From the NCBI RefSeq assembly GCF_900291465.1, contig NZ_LT985808.1, forward strand, positions 3,649,494-3,706,277: a DNA stretch of 56,784 nt, given 5' to 3'. Shown here one piece after another: positions 17,740-35,360 of this stretch. The DNA comes from Bacteroides sp. Marseille-P3684 (GTDB taxonomy: Bacteria; Bacteroidota; Bacteroidia; Bacteroidales; Bacteroidaceae). The position numbers and the translations under genes are program-made. Numbering within the stretch: the first letter of the stretch is position 1; each line of letters starts with the position of its first letter. The notes under the pieces were generated by a model, which was given only the letters and a program-made list of their open reading frames with translations, was not told where the DNA came from and made no database searches.

Positions 17740-18873
17740 ATGATTGATTTTGACGAATACCTGCATCAAAGTGAACCGGACAAGCGGGCAAAAAGTTATG
17801 CCTGGCAGACCGCCATCGGTCTTCAAGCCGTCGATGGACTGAAAACGTCCGACTATCTGCTGGACACCGTCCGTAAAGACATCGAAGGAGAGATTGACAT
17901 CGACGAAGTTTCCCGACTGATACACAGCTATTATGAATCAAAGGGAATCCATACTGAGGAAGACGAAGAACAGCATGAGGCAGACAAGGCTTCCGTCAAT
18001 ATCCGACGACTATTGACGGAACAGACCTTTGCGTTCACATTGGTGGGACTGACTTCCATCCACCGACGGATTTTTGACGGGATATTCAAATTCGCCGGTC
18101 AAATCAGAGACTACAACATCTCCAAAAGGGAATGGGTATTGCGAGGAGAAAGTGTCCTCTATGTTTCTGCCCCGGATATCCGGATGGCCATCGAATATGA
18201 CCTGGAACAGGAACGGCAGTTCGACTATTCCGGAGTAAATCCGGAAGGCTTCATCCGGCATTTTGCCCGGTTCATTGCAGGACTGTGGCAGATACATCCT
18301 TTTGGAGAGGGAAATACCCGGACAACAGCCATATTCGCCATCAAGTATTTACGTTCCATGGGATTTCACATCGAAAACGACCTGTTTGCCAAACATGCGT
18401 GGTACTTCAGAAACGCATTGGTGCGTGCCAACTATCAGAATATCCAAAAAGGCATCACGGCCAACCGCGATTATCTGGAACGCTTCCTTCGCAACCTGCT
18501 GATGGGTGAACAGAACGAACTGCGCAACCGTTATCTCTTGGTCAATGCCCCTGAGAAACTACCTGACCCGACAAGTAACCCGACAAGCTACCCGACAAGT
18601 AACCCGACAAGTAACGACAGTCAGTGGAATATCCCCAATGAAAACGTCCATCGACTAATCGAGGTACTGGACCGTCAGCAGTTGTCCGTCAAGAGCATGC
18701 TGGCTGCCCTGAGACTGAAGAACCGGGAGAGCTTCATAGACACCTACCTGACGCCTGCCATGCAGGAGGGAGTTGTCGCCATGCTTTATCCCGACAAGCC
18801 CAAGCATCCCCGTCAGAAGTACCTGCTGACAGCCAAGGGACTCGCCCTGCTGACAGAGAAGACGAAAGGCTAA
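17740..18873 (+). CDS. Fic-domain protein with C-terminal winged-helix-like domain
   Basis: A 377-residue Fic protein, expected to transfer AMP or another nucleotide-derived group onto a target protein. The core motif near residues 187-198 reads HPFGEGNTRTTA. Catalytic His and the first Arg are kept, but the canonical GNGR Gly is Thr and the last Arg of HxFx(D/E)GNGRxxR is Ala. Near residues 45-60, DIEGEIDIDEVSRLI resembles the class II inhibitory segment (S/T)xxxE(G/N), with Arg in place of Ser/Thr. A linker of NPTS/YPTS repeats (about 276-292) leads to a C-terminal domain (RQQLSVKSMLAALRLKNRESF) typical of Fic proteins in Bacteroidetes. No separate antitoxin gene is adjacent. Its end nearly touches the convergent menA end. 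Confidence 0.88.
   Translation: MIDFDEYLHQSEPDKRAKSYAWQTAIGLQAVDGLKTSDYLLDTVRKDIEGEIDIDEVSRLIHSYYESKGIHTEEDEEQHEADKASVNIRRLLTEQTFAFTLVGLTSIHRRIFDGIFKFAGQIRDYNISKREWVLRGESVLYVSAPDIRMAIEYDLEQERQFDYSGVNPEGFIRHFARFIAGLWQIHPFGEGNTRTTAIFAIKYLRSMGFHIENDLFAKHAWYFRNALVRANYQNIQKGITANRDYLERFLRNLLMGEQNELRNRYLLVNAPEKLPDPTSNPTSYPTSNPTSNDSQWNIPNENVHRLIEVLDRQQLSVKSMLAALRLKNRESFIDTYLTPAMQEGVVAMLYPDKPKHPRQKYLLTAKGLALLTEKTKG
18567..18614 (+). repeat. In-frame 12-bp tandem repeat in the Fic gene
   Basis: Four copies of CCCGACAAGTAA (copy 2 reads CCCGACAAGCTA), encoding the PTSN/PTSY linker. Twelve bases is a multiple of three, so copy-number change would alter linker length without a frameshift. Confidence 0.85.
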
Positions 18874-18877
18874 TCCT

Positions 18878-19780
18878 CTATCCCAGGCACTGCAACAGCA
18901 ACCCGACGGTGAGCAGCAATCCGAAAAGGAAGATGTTGCGTGCCGTCATGCCCAGCACCCGGTTGAGCGCACGGCCCTGATGGAGGCTGACCATGAGCTG
19001 CCAGGTCCTGATGTGGAGGAGCAGGTAGAACTGCGGCAGGATTGCTGCCCACAGATAACCGCCTGCCACAAGCGACAGGCAACCTACGCAGGAGAGGAAG
19101 CCCAACCACAAGTAACCGGTGCTGCCGGCACGTGCCCCCCAACGGACCACTACGGTACGCTTGCCGCTGATGCGGTCCTGGTCGCGGTCGCGGAAATTGT
19201 TGACCATGAGCAACGTGTCAATGACCAGTCCGCAGGCTGTAGCACAGACCACGGATGCCCAGGTCCAGCCCCCCGTCTGCAAATAGTAGGTGAAGCAGAC
19301 CGGCACCCAACCGAAGAACACCAGCACGAGCACGTCGCCCCATCCGCGATAGGACAACCCGAGGGTATAAAGGAAGGCGAACAGCACACAGACGGCTCCC
19401 ACCAGCAACAACTCCCATCCGCCAATCCACAGCAACGGCAAGCCTGCCACACAGGCAAGCAGCGTAGTCACGACAATGCCTCCCTGCATGGCACGGGGCG
19501 TAATCCATCCCTGTGCACAGGCACGCTCGGGACCGAGCCGGTCGGTGCGGTCACTCCCTTTGCGGAAATCGAAATAGTCGTTGATGAAGTTGGCGTCAAT
19601 CTGCATGATGAAGGCAAACAGGAAGCAGAGCACACAGGGCAGGACCTGAAAGTCTGCACTCAGGTCGGCGGCTGCCAGTGCCGAACCGACCATGACCGGG
19701 ACTGCCGCAGCAGAGAGGGTCTTGGGACGTGCGGCAAGCAGCCAGGCACGCGGAGAATTGGTCTTTACGTCGTTTTCCAT
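18878..19780 (-). CDS. menA: 1,4-dihydroxy-2-naphthoate polyprenyltransferase
   Basis: Attaches the polyprenyl chain to dihydroxynaphthoate in menaquinone synthesis; inner-membrane protein of the UbiA superfamily. About eight hydrophobic segments are seen. The first Asp-rich motif is NFINDYFDFRKGSDRTDR near residue 65, and the second is NNFRDRDQDRISGKRTVVVRWG near residue 190. The 300-residue length is normal. It has its own likely promoter and is transcribed convergently with the Fic gene, with only four bases between the two coding ends. No other men genes are in the window. Confidence 0.95.
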   Translation of the reverse strand: MENDVKTNSPRAWLLAARPKTLSAAAVPVMVGSALAAADLSADFQVLPCVLCFLFAFIMQIDANFINDYFDFRKGSDRTDRLGPERACAQGWITPRAMQGGIVVTTLLACVAGLPLLWIGGWELLLVGAVCVLFAFLYTLGLSYRGWGDVLVLVFFGWVPVCFTYYLQTGGWTWASVVCATACGLVIDTLLMVNNFRDRDQDRISGKRTVVVRWGARAGSTGYLWLGFLSCVGCLSLVAGGYLWAAILPQFYLLLHIRTWQLMVSLHQGRALNRVLGMTARNIFLFGLLLTVGLLLQCLG

Positions 19781-19954: not shown

Positions 19955-21433
19955 TTATTTTGCCAATGAAGCGGCAACGGCCGGTTCGAAGTCATTGGTC
20001 GAGTTGTTGGTGTCGACCAGGGTGCCGTCGGTGTTGGCCTTGCGGCGCACGGCTTTCCCATAACGGCTGGTATCGTCGCTGTTGACGGCACAGTAGGTGA
20101 AGCCGGCATCGAGCGCACTGCCGAAGGGATTGTAGGCAAAGCCTTCCTTCGTACCGATTACAACCGCATCAATCACCCAGTCATTGGGAACAGCCTGGTA
20201 GTTGAACTTCGTCGAGAAGTCGCGTCCGGTCGAAGCCACCTGCCAGGAGCGTGTGCCGCTCCAGAGATAGGCCTCGTTGTCCACAAAGGTGGCGGCGGTC
20301 AGGTCGGCAGGAAGGGATACCAACACAAAGCCGTGGTTCATCTGCACGTTCAGGATGTAGATGGTCATGGAGTTGGAAATCCATACATCCATGTTCGGCA
20401 CATCGGGGTTGTCGACATCCATCATCGAGCTGACGGTCGACTCGTTGTACCACTCGAAGTCGGCTCCCGTCAGGTCGAACGAGGTGGCATTGGTCGCCTT
20501 GTAGTTCTGTGCATTGTTGACAATGAGAACGGATTCACGGGCGGCGAGAGTATGCTTGCCGCGGTCCTTCGGAATCACGTACAGCGACTGGATGGCAGCC
20601 ACGTTGTCGCGGTTGTCCGGTTCCCATTTCTGGTTGGTCATCGTGGTGCTGAGCGTCGTGATGGCACTCTCGGCGAAAGCCACGCCCCCGATTTCCAGCT
20701 CTTCGTCGGTGTTGTTGGTCAGGATGAAGTACTGCTCCATGTTGCGCGAGTCGGTCTTTCCGGTCTCGGCTATCAGGTTGCTGGTAAGGAAGACCTCCTG
20801 GAACAACAGCTCACCCGGTTCCACGTTGCGCCAGCTCTGTGACAGGTTGAGGGTGGCGAGGTGCGAGCCGTCGGTCTTGCTGACGGTCACGGCAGCCGTA
20901 CGATAGTGGTCGCCCGCCTCGTTGGCGGCAAGCGTCAGGACCACACTCCCCGACTTCTTCTCTTTCAGCTTCACCCAATCGGCATCCGTGGGGATGGTCA
21001 CTTCATAGCCTTCGTTTGCCGGCAACACGATTTCCCGGTCACCACCCTTGGCACGCACCTTGATGGTCTGGTTGCTCGGGTCGGCAGGATTCTCCGTACC
21101 TGTCTGAGTGACCACCAGAGTAGCCAGGGCACTTCCGCTGCGCACCACCAGATTGGCACTGCGCGAAGCCACTTCCCCGGATGCTTCAGCTGTCACGGTG
21201 ACTTCCGTCGTGCCGGTCCCCTGCTGGGGTGAAACGGTGTACCACGACTGTCCGTCGGTTTCGATGGTCCAGTCACCGACGGTCTGCACGGTGAAAGTGG
21301 TCGTTCCGCCTGTCACTTCGAGGTTCACCTCCCGGGTCGAGAGGGTGACTTGTACATTGTCGTCATCGTCGCTACATGCTGCCAAGCCTACCAGAAGGAG
21401 GAGCAGCAGCCATACGTTCTTAAGTTTTTCCAT
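19955..21433 (-). CDS. BACON-domain surface lipoprotein (DUF4876-like)
   Basis: A 492-residue lipoprotein whose signal peptide ends at LAAC (Cys20), followed by Ser and four Asp, matching the Bacteroidetes lipoprotein export signal and so predicting surface exposure. Two BACON-like beta-sandwich repeats (about 28-113 and 123-205, each with a DW core and a closing TQTG or SQSW) precede a larger domain (about 210-492, ELLFQEVFLTSN onward). That domain resembles DUF4876 and has lamin-tail-like features. BACON domains usually position or bind ligands outside the cell. As last gene of the receptor transcript, it may capture the ligand for the TonB receptor, analogous to a SusD although unrelated in sequence. 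Confidence 0.8.
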   Translation of the reverse strand: MEKLKNVWLLLLLLVGLAACSDDDDNVQVTLSTREVNLEVTGGTTTFTVQTVGDWTIETDGQSWYTVSPQQGTGTTEVTVTAEASGEVASRSANLVVRSGSALATLVVTQTGTENPADPSNQTIKVRAKGGDREIVLPANEGYEVTIPTDADWVKLKEKKSGSVVLTLAANEAGDHYRTAAVTVSKTDGSHLATLNLSQSWRNVEPGELLFQEVFLTSNLIAETGKTDSRNMEQYFILTNNTDEELEIGGVAFAESAITTLSTTMTNQKWEPDNRDNVAAIQSLYVIPKDRGKHTLAARESVLIVNNAQNYKATNATSFDLTGADFEWYNESTVSSMMDVDNPDVPNMDVWISNSMTIYILNVQMNHGFVLVSLPADLTAATFVDNEAYLWSGTRSWQVASTGRDFSTKFNYQAVPNDWVIDAVVIGTKEGFAYNPFGSALDAGFTYCAVNSDDTSRYGKAVRRKANTDGTLVDTNNSTNDFEPAVAASLAK

Positions 21434-21495
21434 TGCTTTGTGAGTTTATGAATTTGTTGGTTTGTAATATTCCATCATCTGCGGAAGGGCACAGC

Positions 21496-23034
21496 CTAGA
21501 AGCACAACCCTGCCGCTACCTGCAGCCTGCCGTCGCTCATGCCTTCACCGTAGAACTGCCTGCCGTAGCAAGCTGAAAGGAACAGCGCCGTGGTGAGCGA
21601 CAGGCGGCGTTGGACTCGCACCCGTGCCTCCACCATAGTCCGGCTGTCGGTCCGCCGACGGTAGGACGTTTCGAGATAACGGTAGATGCGCAGGTCGGTG
21701 TCGTCGAGCGGGATATCGAAGGTCCCCGTCAGGTTGACGGCATGCCAGCCGCCTACCGAAGCATCCAGGAGCCATGCCTTCTGCAAGCGGGTAAACCCGA
21801 CGGCTGCCCCGGCATTCACTTCCGCCACCTCCAGCCGACGGCGCGGATAGACATACTCCTCATTGGTCCACCGGAAGTCCGCCGACGGGCGCAGCGACCA
21901 TCTGCCTGCCGGACGTTTCCACTCCACCAGCCCTTCCACCCGGGCGTCTGCCTCGCGACTCTTGTAGAGTTGTTGCCCGGCAAGGGGTTGGTTATCGTTC
22001 ACATCCCCGCTGCCCATCACGTGCTCCGTTCCCTGACGGACGCTGTAGGCTCCGATGGCCTTCACTGCCCAGTCGACGTGCTGCCCGGGATGCTTGCAGG
22101 CAAGTCCTCCCGTCAGCGTGTGGACGGTCAGCGTGGTGAGTGTCGCCGTGTTCAGCCCGTCGAGGTTGCGGTCCACCGTCCAGTGGTCATAGTCAGCCAG
22201 AGCGTACCAGCCAGCCCCGTCATGGGGTACCAACGTCAGCGCGGCGTGATAACCCGTACCGCGATACTGCGTATCGGTGAACGAGGTACCGGAGTAACGG
22301 CGATAGAACGTACCCAGTCCGGTGAAGTGCAACTCGGAGGTGTTCGCTCCGTTGGGGTCGTAGAAGTCCACGCTCTGCTGCTGCTTGTACGTGCGGATGC
22401 CGCCTGCCACTCCCAGCACATAAGTGCCCGACCGATAGCCGGCGGACAGGTCGGCAGACAGCTCGGCAGTGATGTTCCGCGGACGGGGGTCCACCTGACG
22501 ATAGGCTTGCGAGGCACGGTAGCCGGCAGTGATGCCGTAGTTGAAGCGTCCGTCCATACGGGTATAGCCGCCATAGAAGTGATACTGTTCCTGCTTCAGG
22601 TCGCCCCCGATGGAGTCCGCCAGGATGTAGGGATACAGCAGGCGGTAGTCCGACGTGGAGTTCCAGCGGACGTTGCGCAGTGTCCCGTTCGTATAATCTG
22701 CTCCGGCAAAGACTGCCGAGCGGGGGTCCAGGCGGAAGTAGGACTCCACACGGAACATGCCGCCAAGAGCTCCGTCCCCTTGTGCCGGGTCAAATGCCTC
22801 GTCCTCGTGACGCCAATCCAGCTGTCCTTTCAGCTCGGTGAACGCATGGTCACTCCGAAAGAAGGCTGCCGCTGCCGAGCGGTCGGACACGAAACGTCCC
22901 GTCTGTGCGAAGGACGACAGGTGTTCCACCGTACGGAGATTGATATCGGGCTGTGCCTTCTGTTCCTGCGCCTGAAGTTTCAGGACGGGCAGTACGGCAA
23001 CGAATAGCAGTCCCAATCGAAAACGTCTGTTCAT
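21496..23034 (-). CDS. Outer-membrane beta-barrel protein (DUF6850-like)
   Basis: A 512-residue protein with an ordinary signal peptide (MNRRFRLGLLFVAVLPVLKLQAQ), then alternating aromatic/polar strands and a terminal GLCF, typical of outer-membrane barrels. There is no plug or TonB box, so it is not itself a TonB receptor. I place it in the DUF6850 group from its neighbourhood and general pattern, with moderate certainty; no enzymatic motif was found. It lies 13 bases after a small lipoprotein and 62 before the BACON lipoprotein in the TonB-receptor transcript, so it probably forms part of the same outer-membrane assembly. Confidence 0.7.
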   Translation of the reverse strand: MNRRFRLGLLFVAVLPVLKLQAQEQKAQPDINLRTVEHLSSFAQTGRFVSDRSAAAAFFRSDHAFTELKGQLDWRHEDEAFDPAQGDGALGGMFRVESYFRLDPRSAVFAGADYTNGTLRNVRWNSTSDYRLLYPYILADSIGGDLKQEQYHFYGGYTRMDGRFNYGITAGYRASQAYRQVDPRPRNITAELSADLSAGYRSGTYVLGVAGGIRTYKQQQSVDFYDPNGANTSELHFTGLGTFYRRYSGTSFTDTQYRGTGYHAALTLVPHDGAGWYALADYDHWTVDRNLDGLNTATLTTLTVHTLTGGLACKHPGQHVDWAVKAIGAYSVRQGTEHVMGSGDVNDNQPLAGQQLYKSREADARVEGLVEWKRPAGRWSLRPSADFRWTNEEYVYPRRRLEVAEVNAGAAVGFTRLQKAWLLDASVGGWHAVNLTGTFDIPLDDTDLRIYRYLETSYRRRTDSRTMVEARVRVQRRLSLTTALFLSACYGRQFYGEGMSDGRLQVAAGLCF

Positions 23035-23047
23035 GAGTGTGCTGGGT

Positions 23048-23455
23048 TTAGTTGAGTAATGTCAGTTGGAGGACGACCGCCTCGGTATCGTTGAGCAGGG
23101 TGACAGCTTTTTCGGGGTTGGCATGTTGCGAACTGCGTACCCGCGCCGTCGTCCCGTCGGAGAATGTGGCACGTGCATCGAACGAGATGAGGTAAACCCC
23201 CTTCTGCACACGGACCGTCCCGCGGTTGTTGACGAAGAGGGGAAAATCATACTCCTGCCGGTTGTTCACGTTGCGCAGGAAGGTCCCTGCCAAGGAGGCA
23301 TCTGCCTCCATCCGCACGATGGAACGCCCGTCGGACAACGAAGTCATCAGGGTGACGTCGCAAAACAGGTGTTCATCGCCCCGGTCCTCGCAGGCGGTAA
23401 GCACCGTCAGGAGTACCAGCAGACAGGGAAACAGGAAGTGGACTTGTCGTTTCAT
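23048..23455 (-). CDS. Small lipoprotein of the TonB-receptor operon
   Basis: A 135-residue lipoprotein (LTAC, Cys22, then Glu-Asp-Arg-Gly-Asp-Glu: an acidic start compatible with surface export). The mature part looks like one beta-sandwich domain (CDVTLMTSLSDGRSIVRMEADASL, later VRVQKGVYLISFDARATF), reminiscent of fimbrillin- or FimB/Mfa2-like folds. I do not recognise the family. It is tightly packed, 9 bases after the receptor and 13 before the barrel gene, so it is almost certainly co-expressed with them. Confidence 0.72.
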   Translation of the reverse strand: MKRQVHFLFPCLLVLLTVLTACEDRGDEHLFCDVTLMTSLSDGRSIVRMEADASLAGTFLRNVNNRQEYDFPLFVNNRGTVRVQKGVYLISFDARATFSDGTTARVRSSQHANPEKAVTLLNDTEAVVLQLTLLN

Positions 23456-23464
23456 AGGCTATCG

Positions 23465-26266
23465 TTACAGTTTAAAGTTCAGCTCCATGCCGAAATAGGG
23501 CTGCACATCGCGCCGCACCAGGGAGCCGTAACGGGTGCGGTAGGAGGGCGTGTAGTCCAGCAGCTTGTTGGCAAACACCGCCAGCGCAATGCGGTCGCGG
23601 TAGAGTGTCTTGGTGACTTTCAGGTTGATGTTCATGCTGAACGGTACCCGGTTGTAATCATAGGATGTCGTGTTGAACTCGCGCACCAAGGCAGAAAGCA
23701 GGGCATTTGCCGCCGACTCTTCCGTAAAAGGGTGACGCTCGTTGTTCTTGTCGATGTACTCCAGCGGATACAGGCTCCGCGGCTTGTTCCGGCTCCCGGT
23801 GAACCACAGGCACTGGAACGAGGTGGAGAAGATCAGCCCCAGACGGGGTATCTGTGTGTCGGCGGTGAAGTTGGTGTTGAACATCTCGCGCACGTAGCCG
23901 TCCTCATCCTCGTAGTAGCCGATGTAGGGATAGGACTTCCCGTCGACCACCATCGTCGGCTTGTAGTATTCGGGCAGGCTGTTGCTATAAACAGTCTTGA
24001 ACCAGGCTCCCGTGACGGTGAACTTCGTCAGCAGCGGACGGATGCGAGGTGTCGTCAACGTGAACTCCACACCGCGCTTCTGCGTACGGCTGCCGTTGAC
24101 CGTACTCGAACGGGTGGTCAGCAGGGTGTCGGTCACGTAAGGGGTAGTCTCCAGGGAGGGCGGTCCCGTCAGCGTCGACGCGTCGATTGCCGACTCGTCA
24201 TAATCCTTGTAAACCATCGTCACCGGCTCGGAGGAAGAGCGGAAGCCGGACTTCATGTCCTCCTGGAAGTAGGTGACCGAGAGCGAACAGCCTTTCCAGT
24301 CCACATCGCCACGCACCTCCCACTTGAAGTTGCGGGCGGCACGAAGCTTGAAATTCGTCGGGTCGAGCTTGAACACCCGCACGTTGATGCGCCGTTTCGC
24401 CGCGTCCGCCGACCAATAGTTCAGCTGGGTGATGTCGTAGTAGACGGGGTCTGGATAGAGCTGGTCCATCGTGGGCATCTTGGTGTGCCAGCCCGTACCG
24501 CCTGCCACCGTCAGCCTCATCTCATCGCCCGCCACCTGGAAGCGCGGCAGGTCCAGACGCACATTCAGGCGCGGGTCGAGATAGACACGCCCCTGCAAGT
24601 CGTAACGGCTGTCCAGGTTCATCAGGGTCTGGGCGCGCAGTCCCGCCATCCACTGCAGGCGGAAGGCACCCAATGGCAGCGTGGAATTGCTCTCCACAAA
24701 GAGGGCGCCCTGGTGTTGCGCAGGTATCTCGTTAAAGGCACGCGGACGCAGGTTCATGTCGACCGAGAACGGACGAGTCGGGTCAAACACCGTGCCGTCG
24801 CCGTAATTCTTGCTCATGCTCCAGTCGGCACCGGCCTTCAGTCCGTAGGATGCCTCGCCGCGCAGACGTTCAAAAGAGGTGACCACCTTTGCGTAGCCAT
24901 AAAACGGACGTCCCTCCACACGCAGGGAGGCTTCGTACCGGGAAGGGACGACCGTGACGTCGTATTCCCCTTCACCCAGGTTCGTCGAAAGCGGGACCTC
25001 GCCTGTCATGGCAACGTACTTCCAGCGGTCAATCAGGTCGTTCTCCATGGTGAAGGAGAGCGTCGCGTCGAGGCTGCGGAAGAAGCGTTCCTCGTCCTTG
25101 GCAGCCATGCGGAAGTTCGTGCCGAATGCCACCCGGTTGTAGGAGGACTTGTAACGTTCCAAAGGGATATCGCCGTTGTCCAGGTTCTTGTCGGACTTCT
25201 CGTCATCGAACGAACCGGTATAGTCCACGTTGCCACCCCACGTATAGCGGAAGGGCGAATCCGTCAGCCAGCGTTTATCCACACGGACGCTCCCCGTCAG
25301 TCGGTTGTAATTCTGCCGGTTGTTGCGTGGGTCGGACTTGGCGTCGAGGTAGTTCAAGCCGACGTTGAGCGACAGACGATCGGGGGCATCGCCCCACTCC
25401 ATCCCCTTGCCCACATACAGAAGCTTGCTCGACATGTCCGCCTTGAAGCGGGCATTCAGGTCAGTGCCGCCCCGCTTGCGGTTCACCTTCACCATGCCGC
25501 TCGTCAAGTCGCCGTATTCCACCGACGGGATACCGCGGACGACTTCAATCGACTCGATGTCGTCCGTCGAAACGGAGCGCATGTCGACGCCGCTGTTGAC
25601 AAAGCTGCTGCCGTAGTTGCTGTACGCCGGGGTGGACTGCAGGTTGGCATCGTTGCTCATGGGTACCCCGTCGATGAGGAACTGCGTCCCTAACGAAGAG
25701 GTGTTGTAGTTGCTGCCCACGGGAGATGCTTCGCGCAGACGGATGACCTGGGGTGTGGCAAAGTTGGGATCGGAGGACCGTCCGCCGGGCAACAGCTCCA
25801 GCAGGTCGGCAATGCTCGACGGCTGTATGTGGCGGATGGCGTCCAAACCGATTTTCGAAGCTGTAGAAAGGGACTTCGATTCGGATGCCGTCACCACGAC
25901 TTCACCGATGCGGATGGGGTTGTAGTTGACCCGCAGACGGACGGTGCGTTGCGAACGGTCGTCCACCGTAAGGTCGGGCTGACGAAAAGTCTGTCCCATG
26001 TAGAACACCTGCATCCGGTACGTGCCCGGCGGCAGGTTGCGGAATGTACACAGTCCGGCTTCGTCGGCTGCCACCGTATAGGTCCTGCCCTCCCCTGCTG
26101 TCAGCGAACAGGCGGCGTAGGATAGAGGTTCCTTCCCTTCCGACTCAGTGAGGATGACACGAAGCCATCGTTCCACCGGGGAAGCCTGTCGGGCACGGGA
26201 GGCGGAGCATGGGACTCCGACAAAAAAGAACAACATGAGATAAATGAGGTACGTCTGTTTCTGCAT
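23465..26266 (-). CDS. TonB-dependent outer-membrane receptor (non-SusC type)
   Basis: A 933-residue receptor. The signal peptide is followed by an N-terminal carboxypeptidase-regulatory-like domain (about 32-110, with PPGTYRMQVFYMGQ), a TonB-box-like GEVVVTAS, and a plug with DLLELLPGG, GTQFLIDGVPMSND and DDIESIEVVRGIPSVEYGDLTSGMVKV. The barrel ends YFGMELNFKL. It is not paired with a SusD. Plug-first receptors of this kind usually import metal chelates, cofactors or small ligands. It is the first gene of its transcript, with its own promoter (26290-26297) and the 18-bp shared site. The ligand is unknown; the neighbouring PepSY-TM protein and Cys/His lipoprotein make a metal or metal chelate the leading guess. 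Confidence 0.93.
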   Translation of the reverse strand: MQKQTYLIYLMLFFFVGVPCSASRARQASPVERWLRVILTESEGKEPLSYAACSLTAGEGRTYTVAADEAGLCTFRNLPPGTYRMQVFYMGQTFRQPDLTVDDRSQRTVRLRVNYNPIRIGEVVVTASESKSLSTASKIGLDAIRHIQPSSIADLLELLPGGRSSDPNFATPQVIRLREASPVGSNYNTSSLGTQFLIDGVPMSNDANLQSTPAYSNYGSSFVNSGVDMRSVSTDDIESIEVVRGIPSVEYGDLTSGMVKVNRKRGGTDLNARFKADMSSKLLYVGKGMEWGDAPDRLSLNVGLNYLDAKSDPRNNRQNYNRLTGSVRVDKRWLTDSPFRYTWGGNVDYTGSFDDEKSDKNLDNGDIPLERYKSSYNRVAFGTNFRMAAKDEERFFRSLDATLSFTMENDLIDRWKYVAMTGEVPLSTNLGEGEYDVTVVPSRYEASLRVEGRPFYGYAKVVTSFERLRGEASYGLKAGADWSMSKNYGDGTVFDPTRPFSVDMNLRPRAFNEIPAQHQGALFVESNSTLPLGAFRLQWMAGLRAQTLMNLDSRYDLQGRVYLDPRLNVRLDLPRFQVAGDEMRLTVAGGTGWHTKMPTMDQLYPDPVYYDITQLNYWSADAAKRRINVRVFKLDPTNFKLRAARNFKWEVRGDVDWKGCSLSVTYFQEDMKSGFRSSSEPVTMVYKDYDESAIDASTLTGPPSLETTPYVTDTLLTTRSSTVNGSRTQKRGVEFTLTTPRIRPLLTKFTVTGAWFKTVYSNSLPEYYKPTMVVDGKSYPYIGYYEDEDGYVREMFNTNFTADTQIPRLGLIFSTSFQCLWFTGSRNKPRSLYPLEYIDKNNERHPFTEESAANALLSALVREFNTTSYDYNRVPFSMNINLKVTKTLYRDRIALAVFANKLLDYTPSYRTRYGSLVRRDVQPYFGMELNFKL

Positions 26267-26289
26267 CCTGAATCCTTTTAATAGTCAAA

Positions 26290-26321
26290 CAAAAGTAGAG
26301 GAAGCCCTCCGGCGGCACAAT
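26290..26321 (-). promoter_or_regulatory. Promoter of the TonB-receptor transcript
   Basis: -7 box TACTTTTG (26290-26297) and -33 box ATTG (26318-26321), 20 bases apart on the minus strand. The -33 overlaps the 18-bp shared site by two bases. Confidence 0.7.
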
Positions 26322-26337
26322 CACCATTTTTAGGTAT
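26320..26337 (-). promoter_or_regulatory. Shared 18-bp operator-like site, receptor promoter
   Basis: The minus strand reads ATACCTAAAAATGGTGAT. Fourteen of 18 positions match the site at 30348-30365 read on the plus strand. The distance to the -33 and -7 boxes is identical at both promoters. A regulator-binding site is inferred. Confidence 0.6.
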
Positions 26338-26405
26338 TTTGTTATACACCCGCCAGCCGAAGGTTACCTATCGGACGAGCCGCCTGTACGGACATCCGCA
26401 CCGTT

Positions 26406-27434
26406 TCAGAACCGCGGACGAACGTAGCGGTCGTAAGGCGACGTGAAGCTCAGGCCGGGCACCTCGTCCGAGGCAGTCTCCACGTCCAGGCTCTTCACGA
26501 GCGCATAGTCGTCCGCCCGAAGCGCATAGTAATGATTAACACCGGGCGATGAAACACAGACCGTCCAGTCAAACAGGTTTCCGAAAATGGTGAGCTGGTC
26601 GCGTGCCGGGTCGTAGGCGGGAATGCCCGTGCGGACAATCGTCCCGTCCGCCCGGATGACGTGAAAGCGATGCTCCGTGTCAATGAGGAAGCCCAACAGC
26701 TGGCGGTCGCGGAACTCCGTGAGGAACACATGCTCCGCCTCTACCCCGTCGGGCAACGGGAGGGGCTTCACATAGGGTTGACCCACCGTCTGCTTCAGGT
26801 GGAAGAGCTTGCCGTCGGCATCGAGCAGGAGGTAACCGTTGTCATACTCCTTCATGGTCGTCGGGTTGCCCGACACTTCGCGGGGAGGGAAGCGGAAGCC
26901 CTTGTCCGACAACATACGGGTGTAGCGGGCACTCTTCCCGGCATCGGGCGTATTCGTGTCCATGACGATGAATTCCACCCCTTCCCCGGTAAAACGGAAG
27001 GCGTCCGCAGGCATCTCCAGGTCGACACGCTTCGGCATGGACTCCAGCAGGAAGTACAGCCCCGTCTGAGGAGCATTGACCGCCGACGGACGCATGCGGA
27101 AGTTGAACGACGTCTGTTGCACCTCGCGCGGACTGACCGCGACGCCGAACAGACTGTCCGGGAAACGTTCGTCGGCTACCAGCTGACGCATGTAGAACAA
27201 CGGCAACAGGCTGTCCACTTCGTGTTCGGAATAAGTGTGCCCGGCAGGGTCCTGACGGGTGATGCCCACACCTTCGGTATACCCCGTGAGGATGAAATCG
27301 TCCAGCAGCGAGCTGTACATGACAAAACGGGAGGGAGCCGCCTTTGTCGTCAGGAAGGCATAGCACCAGGGCAGTTGCCACACTGCCAGCACGGCAAGGG
27401 TGACAAACAGGAATATCTTGCTAATACGTATCAT
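26406..27434 (-). CDS. Membrane-anchored DUF4857-like protein
   Basis: A 342-residue protein with one N-terminal membrane helix (about residues 5-28) and a large periplasmic part rich in beta structure (for example EFRDRQLLGFLIDTEHRFHVIRADG), resembling a propeller or repeated beta-sheet sensor. I assign it to DUF4857 from its setting and general pattern; there is no known catalytic motif. It is the last gene of the inner-membrane transcript, 28 bases after the permease, and the TonB-receptor promoter follows it. It may be the periplasmic or accessory component of the ABC transporter. Confidence 0.75.
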   Translation of the reverse strand: MIRISKIFLFVTLAVLAVWQLPWCYAFLTTKAAPSRFVMYSSLLDDFILTGYTEGVGITRQDPAGHTYSEHEVDSLLPLFYMRQLVADERFPDSLFGVAVSPREVQQTSFNFRMRPSAVNAPQTGLYFLLESMPKRVDLEMPADAFRFTGEGVEFIVMDTNTPDAGKSARYTRMLSDKGFRFPPREVSGNPTTMKEYDNGYLLLDADGKLFHLKQTVGQPYVKPLPLPDGVEAEHVFLTEFRDRQLLGFLIDTEHRFHVIRADGTIVRTGIPAYDPARDQLTIFGNLFDWTVCVSSPGVNHYYALRADDYALVKSLDVETASDEVPGLSFTSPYDRYVRPRF

Positions 27435-27462
27435 AGATTGGTTGAGTTTAGTCCGTTATCAA

Positions 27463-28158
27463 TCATTGTTTCCCGGCTTTGAAGCGCGACACGGAAATCC
27501 ACGCCAACAGCGACAGGGCAAACGTGTAGAGCGCCAGCCAGGGCAGGAACCCGTTGTATGCCTGAGGAACGGGGGCAAGGTAATAGGCACGCACCACCAA
27601 GGCACCTATCAGGAGATTGCACACGCGGAGCTTCCACGTCGGTTCCAGGCAGACCCACGCCGTCAGCAGGTAACCCGCAAAGCCTGCCAGATACCAGGGG
27701 GCAGCGGCAGACAGGATGTTACGTGTCAGCTCGGCAGGAAGGACCGTCGGGAGGTAGGCGAGCATCACCCCGATGTTGACGGCAAAGCAGCCTGCCAGCA
27801 GCACTACGCCGGACGCCAGCATACTGAACACCATCCGCTGTTGCGGACAAGGCAGATGCAGCGTCAGCTTCAGGCACTTGCGCTGCATCTCGGGCATGAA
27901 CTGCACCAGAGCGGCAAGGATGCCTGCCAACAGGGGAACAAACTGCATGTAATCGATGAACACGGCGTCCTTCAACACCATGACTTCCCAGATGTGCGCG
28001 GCTCCTTTCAGCTCGATCGCACGGTCCATGCGGAGCAGGCAGTAACCCGCCACTCCGCTCGTGACCAGCACCGCCAGCAGGAAATACCAGCGGAGCTTGA
28101 TCCACTCTTTATAAAAGATGGCTTGCAGCATTTTTTCTTCGGATTTTAACTGTATCAA
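27463..28158 (-). CDS. ABC transporter permease-like membrane protein
   Basis: A 231-residue protein with about six hydrophobic segments (WYFLLAVLVTSGVAGYCLL, FVPLLAGILAALVQF, MVFSMLASGVVLLAGCFAV and three more). Topology and size fit an ABC-2-like or LptF-unrelated exporter permease rather than a classical BtuC/FecCD importer. Its start overlaps the ATPase stop by four bases, so the two are translationally coupled and very likely form one transporter. No substrate-binding residues can be read. DUF4857-like protein is encoded directly after it. Confidence 0.8.
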   Translation of the reverse strand: MIQLKSEEKMLQAIFYKEWIKLRWYFLLAVLVTSGVAGYCLLRMDRAIELKGAAHIWEVMVLKDAVFIDYMQFVPLLAGILAALVQFMPEMQRKCLKLTLHLPCPQQRMVFSMLASGVVLLAGCFAVNIGVMLAYLPTVLPAELTRNILSAAAPWYLAGFAGYLLTAWVCLEPTWKLRVCNLLIGALVVRAYYLAPVPQAYNGFLPWLALYTFALSLLAWISVSRFKAGKQ

Positions 28159-29042
28159 TACTTTCCCGTCAGCCCGATGAAGGCATCTTCCAGGTTCACT
28201 TTCTCGGCTTTCAGCTCACTGTAGGGCACTTGCAGCTCGGCGAAGACCCGTTCCACCTCGGCGGGAGGCAGGAAGGAGCAGGTTTCCATCACGCCACGCA
28301 CGACCGACGGATGATGGAACGCCTCGGGAAGCCGGGGCACGTAGCCTTCAGGTACACGGCAGGTGTAACGGCGCAGCGTGTCAAGCAGCTGTCCGACGGG
28401 CTGCTGGGTGAGGATGCGCCCGTAGTCCATGATGATGCAGTCGTCGATGAGCCGCTCCATGTCCTGGATGATGTGCGACGTCAGGAAGACCGTCTTCCCC
28501 TCTGCCCGGGCATAGTCGCGCAGGTAGTCGGAGAAGAGACGGCGGTAGCCCGGGTCAAGTCCCAGCGAGAAGTCGTCGAGGATGAGCAGTTCGGGGTTCT
28601 GTGCCAGGATCAGCCCCAGCGCCACCTGCGAACGCTGCCCGTTGGACATGCGCGAGATGATTTGCCCGGGAGCGACCTTCAGCATCCGCATCAGCTCATA
28701 GTAGGCCTCTTTCTTCCACTGACCGGGATAGAATGCCGAGTAGAAACGTTCTATCTGGGTGATGTTCATAAACTGGTACTGCACGTGACCTTCGAGCAGC
28801 AGCCCGATGTTGCGGCGCAATGCCGGAGGCATCGTCTGTATGTTCTCGCCGAAGATGAGGCATTCGCCGGAACGAGGCTTCAGGTATCCGCTCAGGATGT
28901 TGATGGTCGTCGTCTTGCCCGTACCGTTCTTGCCCAGCAACCCGAGGATACGTCCGCGGGATACCTCGAAGCTCAGGTCTTCATAGATTTTCCGTTTCCC
29001 ATAGTAATGGGTCAGGTGTTTGCATGCTAAGATTGGAGACAT
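28155..29042 (-). CDS. ABC transporter ATP-binding protein with variant Walker B
   Basis: Starting at MSPILACKHLTHYYGKRKIYEDL gives 295 residues; the frame runs 45 codons further upstream but that part has no family resemblance. Walker A GLLGKNGTGKTT is near residue 38. The signature is RMSNGQRSQ, in place of LSGGQ. Walker B reads LLILDDFSLGLDPG: the usual catalytic Glu after the Walker Asp is Asp. The switch His is in FLTSHIIQDME. ABC-2 exporters have similar stand-alone ATPases. The variant may slow ATP hydrolysis or be normal for this branch. It is coupled to the permease gene and follows the PepSY-TM gene after 95 bases. Confidence 0.92.
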   Translation of the reverse strand: MSPILACKHLTHYYGKRKIYEDLSFEVSRGRILGLLGKNGTGKTTTINILSGYLKPRSGECLIFGENIQTMPPALRRNIGLLLEGHVQYQFMNITQIERFYSAFYPGQWKKEAYYELMRMLKVAPGQIISRMSNGQRSQVALGLILAQNPELLILDDFSLGLDPGYRRLFSDYLRDYARAEGKTVFLTSHIIQDMERLIDDCIIMDYGRILTQQPVGQLLDTLRRYTCRVPEGYVPRLPEAFHHPSVVRGVMETCSFLPPAEVERVFAELQVPYSELKAEKVNLEDAFIGLTGKY

Positions 29043-29136
29043 TGTGTTGGAGTAAAGAATGAATTGTGAAGTCAGCCCGGAGACAGACGTACGTGTGCCC
29101 CGGGCAGTCGGTCCAAACTCTAAAGACCGATTCGGA

Positions 29137-29706
29137 TTAAAACAGCAGGAAGCAGAGGGGGATGAGGATGCCCACAAGGAGCTCGATGCCTCCGCGTCCC
29201 CACAAGCCCTTCGGTCCCTTCACCATCCACAGTCCGGTGAGGGTAATGAGGATGAGGCACACCGAGAAGGCGTCGGCGAACCACGTCCACCAGCCGCCGG
29301 GATTGAAGTGCAGGCGCACCATCGGCGCAATGACCGGACGGGGCTTGACCGACTCATAGACAGCCTGTCCCGTCGCAACATCGACCACCAGCGAAGAGCC
29401 TCCCTTCAGGAAGACCTTCAACTGCCCGGGCTGCGGGAAGTAGAACTGCGTGAAGTTCTCCTCCTCATCCAGCGGACGGAGCAGCTCCAGCACCCGTTCG
29501 CGCGTCATCCCCTCCTTTCCGGGCAAGTTGTCAGCGACCCGGAACTCCGTCCGTCGGACCGTGTACTGAGGGTCGATGTCGTTGCGGTGGTTCATGAACA
29601 GCCCCGAAAGGGCGTAAATCAGGACCATCCCGGCAAAGAAGAACGACAAGTCGCGGTGCAGCCACCGGCAGAGCTTGCGGAAGGCAGCCCCTCTACTTGA
29701 TGGCAT
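29137..29706 (-). CDS. Small PepSY-TM inner-membrane protein
   Basis: A 189-residue protein with a helix at about 16-38 (LHRDLSFFFAGMVLIYALSGLFMNHR), a periplasmic stretch of about 100 residues, and two C-terminal helices (FADAFSVCLILITLTGLWMV and LLVGILIPLCFLLF). The His residues in WLHRDL and RLHFN resemble heme- or metal-coordinating positions of PepSY-TM proteins, several of which reduce siderophore-bound iron at the inner membrane. It is much shorter than the usual 370-500-residue members, like a minimal form. Its start overlaps the end of the upstream Cys/His lipoprotein gene by 14 bases. Confidence 0.82.
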   Translation of the reverse strand: MPSSRGAAFRKLCRWLHRDLSFFFAGMVLIYALSGLFMNHRNDIDPQYTVRRTEFRVADNLPGKEGMTRERVLELLRPLDEEENFTQFYFPQPGQLKVFLKGGSSLVVDVATGQAVYESVKPRPVIAPMVRLHFNPGGWWTWFADAFSVCLILITLTGLWMVKGPKGLWGRGGIELLVGILIPLCFLLF

Positions 29707-30277
29707 AGCTCTGCGCTTCTACGTAATAGAATGAGAGATAATCCTTTCCGGAGTCCGCCTTACGCTTGGCTATCTTCTCGCGGAAATCGGCGATGCGCTC
29801 CTCGGGAGTGTTTCCCGTTTCGCCGCGCGCCTTCTTCTCTGAGTCACATCCCGCCTCGCCGTCGCCGTGCGTCTTGGCTGTCTGTGCCTTCAGCTGCGCC
29901 TCCCAGTTCTGCAGGTAAGCCTCATCGATGCGCTGCTCTACGAGTGTTCCCGTCACCTCCACCATGGAGTTGATGCACTTTGTGTCGAACGCCCCCAGCT
30001 TTCCGGCTTCCACACGGATGGTCTTCGTGTCGTCACTTCCCATCATGAACATTTTCGTAGCTCCGTGCTTGCACGTGTGGGTACATACCCCTTGGAAGTT
30101 CACCTGTTGTCCCACCAACGAATCGGCACGGGCGAGCAGGTCGTCCACACTCATCACCGCCGCTGTCTGCACTTCCGTGTTTTCAGCCGACGCCGTGTTT
30201 TTACTGTTTCCCGAGCATGCCGAGAGAGTCAGGGCAACGAGAGCCATCGATGCCACCAGTAGTTGTCTTGTTTTCAT
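29693..30277 (-). CDS. Lipoprotein with CTHTCKHG putative metal motif
   Basis: A 194-residue lipoprotein (TLSAC, Cys21). The mature domain (about 45-120) looks like an OB-fold, with VNFQGVCTHTCKHGATKMFMMG: a Cys-x-His-x-Cys-x-His cluster placed in the first strands. Further Cys occur in DTKCINSM and GCDSEKK. Such clustering suggests binding of a soft metal or metal cofactor, but this is inference. The C-terminus is a charged helix (TPEERIADFREKIAKRKADSG) ending in YYVEAQSYAIK. It is the first gene of the inner-membrane transcript, directly after a perfect promoter and the shared 18-bp site, and overlaps the PepSY-TM gene. Confidence 0.82.
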   Translation of the reverse strand: MKTRQLLVASMALVALTLSACSGNSKNTASAENTEVQTAAVMSVDDLLARADSLVGQQVNFQGVCTHTCKHGATKMFMMGSDDTKTIRVEAGKLGAFDTKCINSMVEVTGTLVEQRIDEAYLQNWEAQLKAQTAKTHGDGEAGCDSEKKARGETGNTPEERIADFREKIAKRKADSGKDYLSFYYVEAQSYAIK

Positions 30278-30317: not shown

Positions 30318-30349
30318 CAAAGCTACGCCCGATAAAAAGGTGGGGCAAT
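30318..30349 (-). promoter_or_regulatory. Promoter of the inner-membrane transcript
   Basis: -7 box TAGCTTTG (30318-30325) and -33 box ATTG (30346-30349), 20 bases apart on the minus strand, about 41 bases before the lipoprotein start. Confidence 0.75.
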
Positions 30350-30365
30350 ACCTAAAAGTAGGTAT
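30348..30365. promoter_or_regulatory. Shared 18-bp operator-like site, lipoprotein promoter
   Basis: ATACCTA-AAAG-TAGGTAT, a perfect inverted repeat with 7-bp arms that overlaps the -33 box by two bases. A near copy sits at the same position at the TonB-receptor promoter. Confidence 0.7.
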
Positions 30366-30485: not shown

Positions 30486-32243
30486 TCAAAGCTCCACCCA
30501 CCCCGGGTTCTGCTCAATGTTCTGGTAGCGTACTTCGTCCCAGGGAATAGGCCAATAGTACTGCATCGGCTTGAAGACGCGTACAGCTTCAGGCTTGGCA
30601 TTCATGTTTGAAACGGTATAGACGTCGGGCTTACCCTCCTCCTTGACTATCTTCATAGCCTTCAGCGGGTTGCTGGAACCGTTCATACGTTCTTCTGCTA
30701 TCCCCCAGCGCAAGAGATCCCAATAGGTGCTCTCTTCGAAAGCAAGCTCCACACGGCGTTCATTCACTAAAGATTCCCAATCAAGGGACGTGAGAGCGTC
30801 CATGTGCACACGCCGACGTATCTCGTTGACTTTGGCGAGTGCCGTCTCTGTATCACCCAAGCGGAAAACCACCTCAGCATAGTCCAGCAACGCCTCGGCA
30901 TAACGCCAGATAATATAGTTCTGTGAACTACCATAAGTATCATCGGTGTCGATAGGCTGCTTCTCGTTGACAAACTTGCCCAAGTAATAACCGGTCCGTG
31001 TCACTCCAGCGTTACGCGACGTACCGTAACGGGTCAGATCAGCACCGGCTTGTTCTTTGCCGCCGAAGAGCGTGTAGTGAATCTCCATCACATGGTTGCG
31101 GAAGGTACAGCCGTCATAAAGGATATTGGCATAGAAGCGATAGTCGCGATTCTCGTACGGATGTGCCGGGTCAACAACAGTCTTTCCACCGCGCATGCCG
31201 TACTCGTCAACGTGATTCTGCGTCGGCGTATAAGCGGCATAGATACCACCGAAAGAGGGCGCACTGGCTTCGCGATCCAGTTTATGTCCGAAACCAGTGT
31301 CAAAGTTTCCATCATTGGAATGCTGTACTTCAAAAATAGACTCTACACTATTCTTTGTCAGGAAGATGGTCCGGTATTCCTCTTTGATTTCATCCAGCGT
31401 GGTACCCTCTATGGTCATCAACTTATAACCCAGAGTGAACAGCTCCTCATAAGTAGCTTTCGCCTGCCGGAGCATATCTAGAATACGATCATCTGTGAAA
31501 CCCAGGAAATCTTTCTCCTTACGCTGGAAGACTGGAGAAGAAGCCCACTGGTAGGTCTTGGCTTTGAGCATCAATGCAGCACCACGAGTGACACGCCCGG
31601 CATCAGCCTGCTCATAAGCCACAGGTAACAGTGTGGCTGCCTGTGAAGCCTCATCAGCAATAAATGCCACCATGTCAGCAAACGAAGCACGGGGGAACTT
31701 CGTCTTGTCGTTGAGCGGATCATAAGTCCGGTCGATGAGCAGGACACCGCCGTAACGCCGCAGAAGCATGTAATAATAATAGGCACGGAAGAAGTGCGCC
31801 TCACCCAGGATACGCTGTTTCTGACTCCCCTCGGAAATCTTTCCGGCATTCTCCAACAAGAGATTGATAGATTGAATGCGCGTATAGCAGTTAGTCCATT
31901 CGTTGAGGCTTCGACGCATTATTTCGTTCTCCCGACATTTCAGGACATCACCGTAGGAATTATTATACCAGTCATTACGGCTCACTGTAATCTGGTCGCC
32001 ATACCAAGGCAAGAAATCTCGCGTCATGGACTTCAGCCATGAGCTGGTAGGCATGTAAATGGAATAACCATTACTCATATTGCGGTACCAAGGCAACACA
32101 TATTCATCCAGTAGAAGCGGATCTGCCCAAATGGATTCTTGGGAGAGCCGATTGTAGGGAGCATCTCTGAAGATATCATCACAACTGCCCAGTAACAAGA
32201 CCGAGGCAATCATGCCGAAAAGGTATTTCTTTATTTGTATCAT
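30486..32243 (-). CDS. SusD/RagB-family surface lipoprotein
   Basis: Surface substrate-binding partner of the SusC encoded directly upstream. Starting at MIQIKKYLFGMIASVLLLGSC gives a clean lipoprotein signal (about 585 residues); ten further upstream codons add nothing recognisable and overlap SusC. The cysteine is followed by Asp-Asp. Family features: YNRLSQESIWADPLLLDEYVLPWYRNM, helices with LGEAHFFRAYYYYMLLRRYGGV, and the C-terminal IWRYAEALLDYAEVVFRLGD and LNEIRRRV-like segment. Because the operon begins with a large protease rather than glycosidases, its ligand may be peptide or glycopeptide. The terminator follows at once. Confidence 0.94.
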   Translation of the reverse strand: MIQIKKYLFGMIASVLLLGSCDDIFRDAPYNRLSQESIWADPLLLDEYVLPWYRNMSNGYSIYMPTSSWLKSMTRDFLPWYGDQITVSRNDWYNNSYGDVLKCRENEIMRRSLNEWTNCYTRIQSINLLLENAGKISEGSQKQRILGEAHFFRAYYYYMLLRRYGGVLLIDRTYDPLNDKTKFPRASFADMVAFIADEASQAATLLPVAYEQADAGRVTRGAALMLKAKTYQWASSPVFQRKEKDFLGFTDDRILDMLRQAKATYEELFTLGYKLMTIEGTTLDEIKEEYRTIFLTKNSVESIFEVQHSNDGNFDTGFGHKLDREASAPSFGGIYAAYTPTQNHVDEYGMRGGKTVVDPAHPYENRDYRFYANILYDGCTFRNHVMEIHYTLFGGKEQAGADLTRYGTSRNAGVTRTGYYLGKFVNEKQPIDTDDTYGSSQNYIIWRYAEALLDYAEVVFRLGDTETALAKVNEIRRRVHMDALTSLDWESLVNERRVELAFEESTYWDLLRWGIAEERMNGSSNPLKAMKIVKEEGKPDVYTVSNMNAKPEAVRVFKPMQYYWPIPWDEVRYQNIEQNPGWVEL

Positions 32244-32262
32244 ACGTTCACGTTTATAGAAA

Positions 32263-35200: not shown

Positions 35201-35346
35201 GTTCCTTTCACACTGATGTTAGCTCCTATGACCGCTTCCCCATTGGTGTCAACCACAACACCCCGAAGCTCCCGACGATGGTTCTGCGCCATCACCAATC
35301 CGGCCACACAACACCACACGATTAAAAAATGGATTATCCTGTTCAT
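32263..35346 (-). CDS. SusC/RagA-family TonB-dependent transporter
   Basis: A 1027-residue outer-membrane transporter. Signal peptide (MNRIIHFLIVWCCVAGLVMAQ), carboxypeptidase-regulatory-like domain (about 25-110, LRGVVVDTNGEAVIGANISVKG), LDEVVVVGYGTQKKTSLT TonB region, and plug (LSGQAAGLQVMSTTGDPS, IHIRGINKAPLLVIDGVPR, SISILKDAAAAAVYGARAANGVILV). The barrel ends YGVTLNLGF. The SusD gene overlaps its stop by a few bases if the longer SusD start is used, otherwise a short gap separates them. It follows the metalloprotease after 14 bases, so it probably imports products of that protease. Confidence 0.95.
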   Translation of the reverse strand: MNRIIHFLIVWCCVAGLVMAQNHRRELRGVVVDTNGEAVIGANISVKGTKLGTITDFDGAFTLQLPDSVRALQVTYIGFQSQTVAVTPGQTSLRVVLQNDLRQLDEVVVVGYGTQKKTSLTSSVEMVKADDLLQMGTVNLDEALSGQAAGLQVMSTTGDPSSRKEASIHIRGINKAPLLVIDGVPRFGTNTSDGEMLLSDLNPDDIESISILKDAAAAAVYGARAANGVILVQTKRAAGKPQKVSVNYRGQFNLQQATKLPHFLDAYEFAKLYNRAVANTPSTPYEAYTDEELEMIRTHAAPNKFGDENLLDYLDDYGYSMIHSLSVSGGNDAVRYYLSGGYTDTRGLYSGIGRDRYNYSMKLDATLLKGLTLSLDVTGSRSQNKNTSYTTLEAAYSYSPVQVLRFTNGQLASIEGGNPLIAVDGLGGYVEDKFNMSTITATLRYEIPWVKGLSAYLRGTFDNNSIINKTFDKPVTLYLYDENEDTFKEDSKTTYPKAKISLEQTDRFVDNKLVELGINYNRTFAEMHDVSALLILNYQDYKNRYMSGTNLDMPGIYPETIGTAVSAKLSGDEYYNERASMIGRLTYGYGNRYFVEGSFRVDGSTKFHPDHRWGFFPTVSASWVLSNEPFFKAWQQRVLSNVKFRASLGILGDDGSIADYAYLLNYMYTTQQGYNIGGNMKPGIVMSTGNYPNPKLEWGKSRDYNLGIDLGFWDNRISLSYEYYWRYNTNMITSAPAYLYPPSTGVEGNVPSMNFGKVKAWGWDLTLTHLNTIGAWKYNAALRLSKTDDVVKDYGDESSVDPLRRRVGKSSLVWWMYEADGLFQTEEEIKNHPLDQDGKKNATLAPGDIRYKDQNGDNELTDLDKIAVKNSSMPDMTMSLRLGVEYKGFFINATIQGVSGYKQDISDLYTLENNSLQRFQDYHLTDTWNEDNRDAHYPRIKFANKNDNNRKASTFWLQSCNFVRLKALSVGYSIPRHLLSRVKLSSASIALQGSNLHTWSSLENMDPETLRGYPVQRSYGVTLNLGF

Positions 35347-35360
35347 AAGTTAAGAGTTTA

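Follow-up and report, generated by a model that had tools for sequence, protein, structure and literature searches.

We examined a cluster of nine genes in Bacteroides sp. Marseille-P3684 (3.7-Mb genome, three contigs) that lies within a 56,784-nucleotide stretch of DNA, hereafter the window. As an earlier note on this DNA had described, the cluster consists of nine open reading frames, all in the same orientation on the minus strand, running with the same boundaries from 30277 down to 19955. They form two halves: an inner half encoding a lipoprotein (lpA), a PepSY protein, an ABC ATPase, a permease and a DUF4857 protein, and a receptor half encoding a TonB-dependent receptor, a small lipoprotein, a DUF6850 protein and a BACON-DUF4876 lipoprotein. 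Intergenic spacing inside each half is at most 94 bp, and the lpA and PepSY reading frames overlap. Because the 139-bp gap between the halves carries its own promoter-like site, the sequence fits the two-transcript organisation that had been proposed. The nine genes are one coherent trans-envelope unit, and we think that this unit probably serves the uptake of an iron carrier under iron starvation.

The inner half begins with lpA (29693..30277), a Cys/His lipoprotein with an OB-fold in its structure model and a C65-x-H67-x-C69-x-H71 motif followed by C144. In an alignment of 72 rows, C21, H67, C69 and C144 are present in every row and C65 and H71 in 69. An acidic surface-export signal was not found after the lipobox Cys of lpA, and the protein probably faces the periplasm. 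The next gene (29137..29706) encodes a minimal PepSY-TM protein of ~190 residues with about three transmembrane segments, which matches both PepSY_TM_like_2 (PF16357, 50.8 bits) and PepSY_TM (PF03929, 31.4 bits) above the Pfam cut-off. Its residues H17, H40 and H133 are invariant (58/58 rows), and we regard it, from its sequence, as a candidate heme-b ferric reductase. The ABC ATPase (28155..29042) matches ABC_tran above the cut-off and its nearest models, drrA and GldA among them, are of the exporter type, with scores below their cut-offs; the ATG at 29042 is a more likely start than an upstream TTG. Its partner is a polytopic permease (27463..28131) with five to six transmembrane segments by hydropathy. 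The DUF4857 protein (26406..27434; PF16149, 366 bits, above the cut-off) has an N-terminal transmembrane anchor and a periplasmic propeller-like domain; the structure model of the protein has a predicted local distance difference test score of 90.2, and the propeller matches are weak. The minimal PepSY-TM, ABC ATPase and DUF4857 assignments of the earlier note were thus all borne out by Pfam.

The receptor half opens with the TonB-dependent receptor (23465..26266), whose Plug domain (PF07715) scores above the cut-off and is similar to that of ferric-enterobactin receptors. The SusD family is unmatched among the nine proteins, so the receptor is indeed one without SusD, and we reject a SusCD importer. 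A small, clade-specific lipoprotein (23048..23455) is followed by the DUF6850 protein (21496..23034; PF21012, 310 bits, above the cut-off), presumably an outer-membrane barrel, as the earlier reader also took it to be. The last gene (19955..21433) encodes a surface lipoprotein in which the BACON domain (PF13004) recognised earlier is joined by DUF4876 (PF16215), both above the cut-off. Its mature N terminus is CSDDDD, and SDDDD is a proposed surface-export signal in B. fragilis, according to the available part of PMC5080379. The export signals of the two lipoproteins therefore differ, with the SDDDD-type signal in BACON-DUF4876 and not in lpA. For lpA, the permease and the small lipoprotein, no Pfam family was matched at E <= 0.1.

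The gene set is widely shared. A DUF4857 alignment run against named genomes yielded 105 confirmed relatives. We retained the 80 best, whose titles we read as all belonging to Bacteroidia; with the window these make 81 loci, many of which end at contig ends. Using profiles grown from the window proteins, we detected the permease in 79 loci, the ABC ATPase in 76, lpA in 73, the receptor in 65, DUF4876 in 62, PepSY in 58 and DUF6850 in 57. The small lipoprotein, which had been counted as part of the set, was detected in 5/81 loci (the window and four relatives), and this local addition therefore falls outside a conserved set of eight core genes. Among 50 well-covered loci with at least 20 kb of sequence, 49 have lpA, ABC ATPase and permease, 45 have DUF4876 or DUF6850, 42 have PepSY and 35 have all eight. 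The set stays together through at least four gene orders. The inner half comes first in the window and L011-L014, the receptor half in, for example, P. vulgatus (L016), B. fragilis (L018) and B. faecis (L026); the halves are divergent in B. pyogenes (L038, L054), Rikenella (L067) and Barnesiella (L069), and the order is mixed in Porphyromonas bennonis (L086, genes interleaved) and Marinilabilia (L087, L088). At L037 two complete receptor halves flank one inner half, which suggests that several receptors share a single inner module.

That survey was anchored on DUF4857. A second one, free of this bias, used three family searches across 246 Bacteroidales genomes and found matches above the cut-off to DUF4857 in 36 genomes, DUF4876 in 54 and DUF6850 in 52, one DUF4857 match below the cut-off (G274) having been excluded before counting. 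DUF4876 is present in 35 of the 36 DUF4857 genomes (table 35/1/19/191, Fisher p 1.6e-27, kinship among the genomes being uncorrected), and a DUF4876 gene lies within 12 kb of 32/42 DUF4857 copies (29/36 genomes). The rare co-occurrence of the halves that the earlier note named as damaging to its reading is therefore not what these genomes contain. DUF4857 is absent from 19/54 DUF4876 genomes; with the receptor half found there on its own, the unit is modular. The claim of coherence, supported by the 35/36 co-occurrence, is qualified by these solitary receptor halves and by loci in which PepSY was not detected, to which we return below.

Both promoters in the window carry one 18-bp palindrome that abuts the -33 region and sits at an identical spacing (22 nt) from the box TAnnTTTG, which we take to be the Bacteroidetes -7 promoter consensus. 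On the minus strand, the inner-half transcript has the operator ATACCTACTTTTAGGTAT at 30348..30365 and the -7 box TAGCTTTG at 30318..30325, and the receptor transcript has the operator ATACCTAAAAATGGTGAT at 26320..26337 and the -7 box TACTTTTG at 26290..26297. The operators were located by motif and matrix scan, and in the whole window only these two sites reach a score of at least 11 with our first matrix or at least 9 with our second. A strict form of the palindrome, AT[AC]CC-N8-GG[GT]AT, occurs upstream of 14/58 receptor genes and 10/71 lpA genes, compared with 0.05 each in base shuffles. Among 28 strict sites, TAnnTTTG follows within 60 bp in 16 and at exactly 22 nt in 14. The first matrix, made from the strict sites and hence circular for its training rows, finds sites scoring at least 10 upstream of 42/58 receptor and 15/71 lpA genes. 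The second was made from 22 hand-picked sites before genes outside the locus, although the pattern that had originally led to these sites came from the locus itself, and the rows are related. At the same threshold it marks 41/58 receptor genes (36 distinct site sequences) and 13/71 lpA genes, versus 23/365 of the remaining genes in these loci (p 5.2e-27). Few lpA sites are expected, because lpA is mostly an internal gene of an operon that begins with the receptor half; but several lpA genes that apparently start a transcript (e.g. L013, L065, L069, L077) have no second-matrix site.

Elsewhere in the genomes, we read 36 stretches around the palindrome from seven of eight named genomes, together with four from the genome of the window itself. 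Judged by sequence, downstream genes include feoAB (L145, L152), a flavodoxin (L126), hemerythrin-domain genes (L124, L136, L148, L156) and several TonB receptor genes. Pfam confirmed the downstream genes of L124, L126, L129 (methyltransferase), L131, L132, L145, L147 (TetR), L151 (esterase) and L152, and gave no match for a porin-like gene at L123. The low-iron stimulons in the accessible portion of PMC10434189 include induced genes for flavodoxin, hemerythrin-domain proteins, TetR and FeoB. Since the palindrome recurs in relatives before feoAB, flavodoxin and hemerythrin-domain genes, kinds induced in those stimulons, we read it as a likely Bacteroidales iron box. The siderophore or metal-chelate link drawn in the earlier note was, on this showing, right in kind, the metal being iron. 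The window's genome has three FUR-family genes and one FeoB. PgFur binds the hmu promoter and not the E. coli Fur box, as stated in the part of PMC6613475 at hand, and no Bacteroides Fur motif was found in titles or abstract openings among the open-access papers listed.

The palindrome also precedes genes of central metabolism. It lies before pyruvate formate-lyase at L125, L132 (confirmed by Pfam), L150 and L154, which would fit a low-iron switch away from the iron-rich pyruvate:ferredoxin oxidoreductase. It precedes enolase in five genomes (L131 by Pfam, L140, L144, L153 and L159 in the window's own genome), a glycolytic gene unexpected in an iron regulon. Three variants of the palindrome (L101-L103) lie within 1.5 kb in the window's genome (C1:2706774-2708258), adjoining a gene that to us looks like one for a phage head protein.

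An iron link for this gene set is already known, because low-iron induction of B. thetaiotaomicron BT3625-BT3633 has been published. In the available part of that study (PMC10434189), all nine of these genes are up 36.7- to 128-fold in low iron, BT3625-33 are up 14- to 19-fold in a colitis study that it cites, and P. gingivalis PG1019-1022 (DUF4876, TonB receptor) are up 20.8- to 214.5-fold in low iron. BT3625-BT3633 is the apparent counterpart of the window locus, matched by published family names and order only: TonB receptor, DUF4876, PepSY, ABC ATPase and DUF4857 are all listed. It differs in having the receptor half first, two DUF4876 entries and one fimbrillin-annotated gene; B. faecis, a relative of B. 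thetaiotaomicron, has the receptor-first order. Open-access literature retrieved with the DUF names and the BT3625-33 locus tags held transcript data only and no functional study. Independent regulation of the two halves, which the earlier note had raised against itself, is at odds with the operator shared by both window promoters and with the rise of all nine B. thetaiotaomicron genes, and the system is likely under iron control.

Two genes of the inner half also travel by themselves. Proteins like lpA occur in 56/119 sampled genomes, and we read ten such places with no DUF4857 in the stretch (L206-L215), whose neighbours are otherwise different. PepSY directly follows lpA in all ten, with gaps of -17 to 228 bp. 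These lpA proteins keep H-x-C in 10/10 and the next His in 9/10, and C65 is lost in 10/10. Together, lpA and the minimal PepSY-TM protein are a recurrent, uncharacterised two-gene module. Because of the invariant ligands and the constant pairing of the genes, we read them as a redox pair, and we infer that their joint job is the redox handling of a metal.

The mechanism that we favour, and hold to be probable though well short of certain, is an iron-carrier uptake system induced by iron starvation. At the cell surface, the TonB receptor would capture an iron carrier with the help of the BACON-DUF4876 lipoprotein and the DUF6850 protein, and would bring it into the periplasm. There, lpA and PepSY may act together, Fe(III) being reduced and Fe(II) received. 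The ABC ATPase, the permease and the propeller-like DUF4857 protein could make up a complex powered by ATP, whose task would be either to clear away the spent carrier or to assist release by mechanical means, and the ferrous iron would then enter via FeoB. An iron-responsive repressor would bind the palindrome abutting the -33 region of each promoter. This mechanism leaves the chemical kind of the carrier open, whereas two of the alternatives considered below, a peptide or protein carrier and heme, specify it.

A number of observations weigh against this mechanism. With one mismatch, the palindrome occurs at 59 places in the eight named genomes versus 26 for a reversed control, and in one of these genomes, that of B. 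salyersiae, the count is below the control (4 versus 8); with two mismatches it occurs at 16 versus 6 places in the window's genome. The overall excess is thus only about two- to threefold. Several sites precede genes without an evident iron role. Among 15 places read in the window's own genome, the only members of the conserved set are the locus itself, enolase (L092) and a TonB receptor (L094). A receptor-like frame contains one exact site (L091/L158), and the neighbours of most sites with two mismatches are unrelated genes. The PepSY sequence had no match at E <= 1 among solved structures, and PepSY was undetected in 8/50 well-covered loci, so the putative reductase does not always belong to the unit. 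Five of these 50 loci are without both DUF4876 and DUF6850, which counts against the unit, and 7/36 DUF4857 genomes have no DUF4876 within 20 kb (contig ends may explain some), one of them, G104, having none anywhere. The solitary receptor modules add to these doubts. In 20 such stretches without DUF4857, read from 18 of the 19 genomes concerned, an iron box lies upstream of the receptor in four, and a co-oriented M16 peptidase of ~940 residues lies 6-54 bp downstream in three (L162, L165, L173). Since these relatives are mostly box-free and partly adjoin peptidases, the receptor module is not by its nature devoted to iron chelates.

Other neighbours of these modules are an M16 pair two genes further on (L174), an S46 peptidase (L175), Fer4_5 membrane proteins (L165, L176) and, in 7/20, co-oriented proteins of ~720 residues (L163, L166-L168, L170, L177, L178). 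At L163, L166 and L177, the receptor-DUF4876-DUF6850 modules are flanked by two or three similar proteins of ~720 to 758 residues, some of which contain HEAT repeats. The N termini of these neighbours look gingipain-like, but a C25 reading was not upheld: among nine of the ~720-residue proteins scanned, five have HEAT repeats above the cut-off and one (L168) matches Peptidase_C25 below it. In a DUF6850 tree of 67 rows, 13/17 DUF4857-free rows fall in one clade (support 90/70, long branches), and the inner-half label changes 5 times versus 15.4 when shuffled. The inner half therefore goes largely with particular receptor lineages, and the lineages that have it carry the iron box more often. The relatives show three reusable modules.

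Because some of these relatives adjoin peptidases and are seldom boxed, the carrier could be a peptide or protein taken up intact, as in protease-associated import (ferredoxin, a heme protein or a peptide loaded with iron), with the redox and ABC module in a protease's place, which we consider doubtful. The M16, S46 or ~720-residue HEAT-type neighbours speak for it, as does FusA-FusC, a system in which an M16 protease cuts the ferredoxin that has been imported (available text of PMC6793856). However, Pfam finds no peptidase family among the nine window proteins, the peptidase-type receptor modules are mostly a separate lineage on a branch that is not strong, and the C25 match is weak. A broader scheme, to which we give slightly less credence, would make receptor-DUF4876-DUF6850 a general outer-membrane importer of polypeptide cargo, coupled by lineage either to periplasmic peptidases or to an iron-boxed lipoprotein-PepSY-ABC-DUF4857 module that strips the iron from an imported peptide or protein, with ATP hydrolysis driving a periplasmic step. 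Uptake of heme or a heme protein by the receptor, with the inner module handling heme, strikes us as unlikely to the same degree as that scheme. The Cys/His motif of lpA could bind heme, PG1019-22 are induced in low iron as described above, and a P. gingivalis DUF4876 gene has a log2 fold change of -5.42 in the hemin-response table of PMC10470040, as far as that source was available. Against this, the HmuY-type family is not matched among the nine proteins, and B. thetaiotaomicron, P. gingivalis and P. intermedia have a separate hmu hemin operon, according to the part of PMC10434189 consulted.

Two further explanations are far less probable than any of these. Separate promoters in the window, and the receptor module without DUF4857 in a third or so of DUF4876 genomes (19/54), might indicate neighbouring, unrelated operons that share iron control only. 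We reject this very improbable reading on co-occurrence and adjacency: DUF4876 accompanies DUF4857 in nearly every genome, adjacency survives at least four arrangements, and in Porphyromonas bennonis the genes are interleaved. Scarcely credible, and the least probable of all, is a locus for fimbria or surface-protein assembly, suggested by the label 'putative fimbrillin synthesis/transport' and the fimbrillin-family annotation of BT3630 in the excerpted PMC10434189. It is rejected because no fimbrillin-type family is matched by any of the nine proteins, and the combination of TonB receptor, PepSY and iron box also speaks against it.

Returning to the iron-carrier system that we prefer, its closest known likenesses are receptor-plus-PepSY systems. 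XusABC (BT2063-2065) has an iron-starvation-induced TonB receptor, a surface lipoprotein and an inner-membrane PepSY protein (PMC13142918, available part). XusB is a DUF4374 protein, whereas the window locus has BACON-DUF4876 and DUF6850 instead, with no DUF4374 match by Pfam for any of its nine proteins; it also adds the OB-fold Cys/His lipoprotein, ABC ATPase, permease and DUF4857. HiuABC/FoxB likewise combine a receptor with a PepSY protein carrying putative histidine-ligated heme sites and are Fur-regulated (PMC13001220, in the part available), but the window PepSY is minimal, has a lipoprotein partner and an ABC module, and owes its reductase role to our own reading. The accessible portions of these two reports describe XusABC (PMC13142918) and HiuABC (PMC13001220) as working by the route proposed here, and an ABC part is not a named component in them. 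Fus and PqqL-Ydd resemble the related receptor modules that adjoin M16 peptidases in some genomes, but the window locus has no peptidase. The families of siderophore ABC importers (binding protein, FecCD-type permease) are unmatched among the nine proteins. The neighbouring SusD gene (30486-32273) belongs with a SusC-type receptor (32263-35346) and not with our locus.

That pair is part of a separate locus directly upstream on the same strand (30486-37943, minus), in which a DUF4953 Met-zincin gene is followed by the SusC-type receptor and SusD, and which possibly serves peptide uptake. On the other side, a Fic/DOC-family protein with a Fic-like C-terminal domain is encoded at 17740-18873 (plus), convergent to a UbiA prenyltransferase gene at 18878-19780.

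In the gut, Bacteroidales are a dominant group and, to our knowledge, little is known of their iron acquisition during inflammation beyond heme uptake and Xus. The locus described here is a conserved cluster of gut-type Bacteroidales. It probably belongs with the iron-uptake systems built on a receptor and a PepSY protein, to which it adds an ABC-DUF4857 module and a lipoprotein as partner. Set beside the available parts of the published work, in which the iron link itself is not new, our analysis adds a parts list, a likely operator, the three-module make-up and the peptidase-linked relatives. DUF4857, the mark of the unit, is present in 36/246 sampled Bacteroidales genomes, and expression of the apparent counterpart in B. 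thetaiotaomicron rises in colitis (PMC10434189, in part). The cluster offers a testable role for families of unknown function (DUF4857, DUF4876, DUF6850 and the OB-fold lipoprotein), and with it mutants and ligands that can be tested directly, as well as a candidate iron box for the Bacteroidales.

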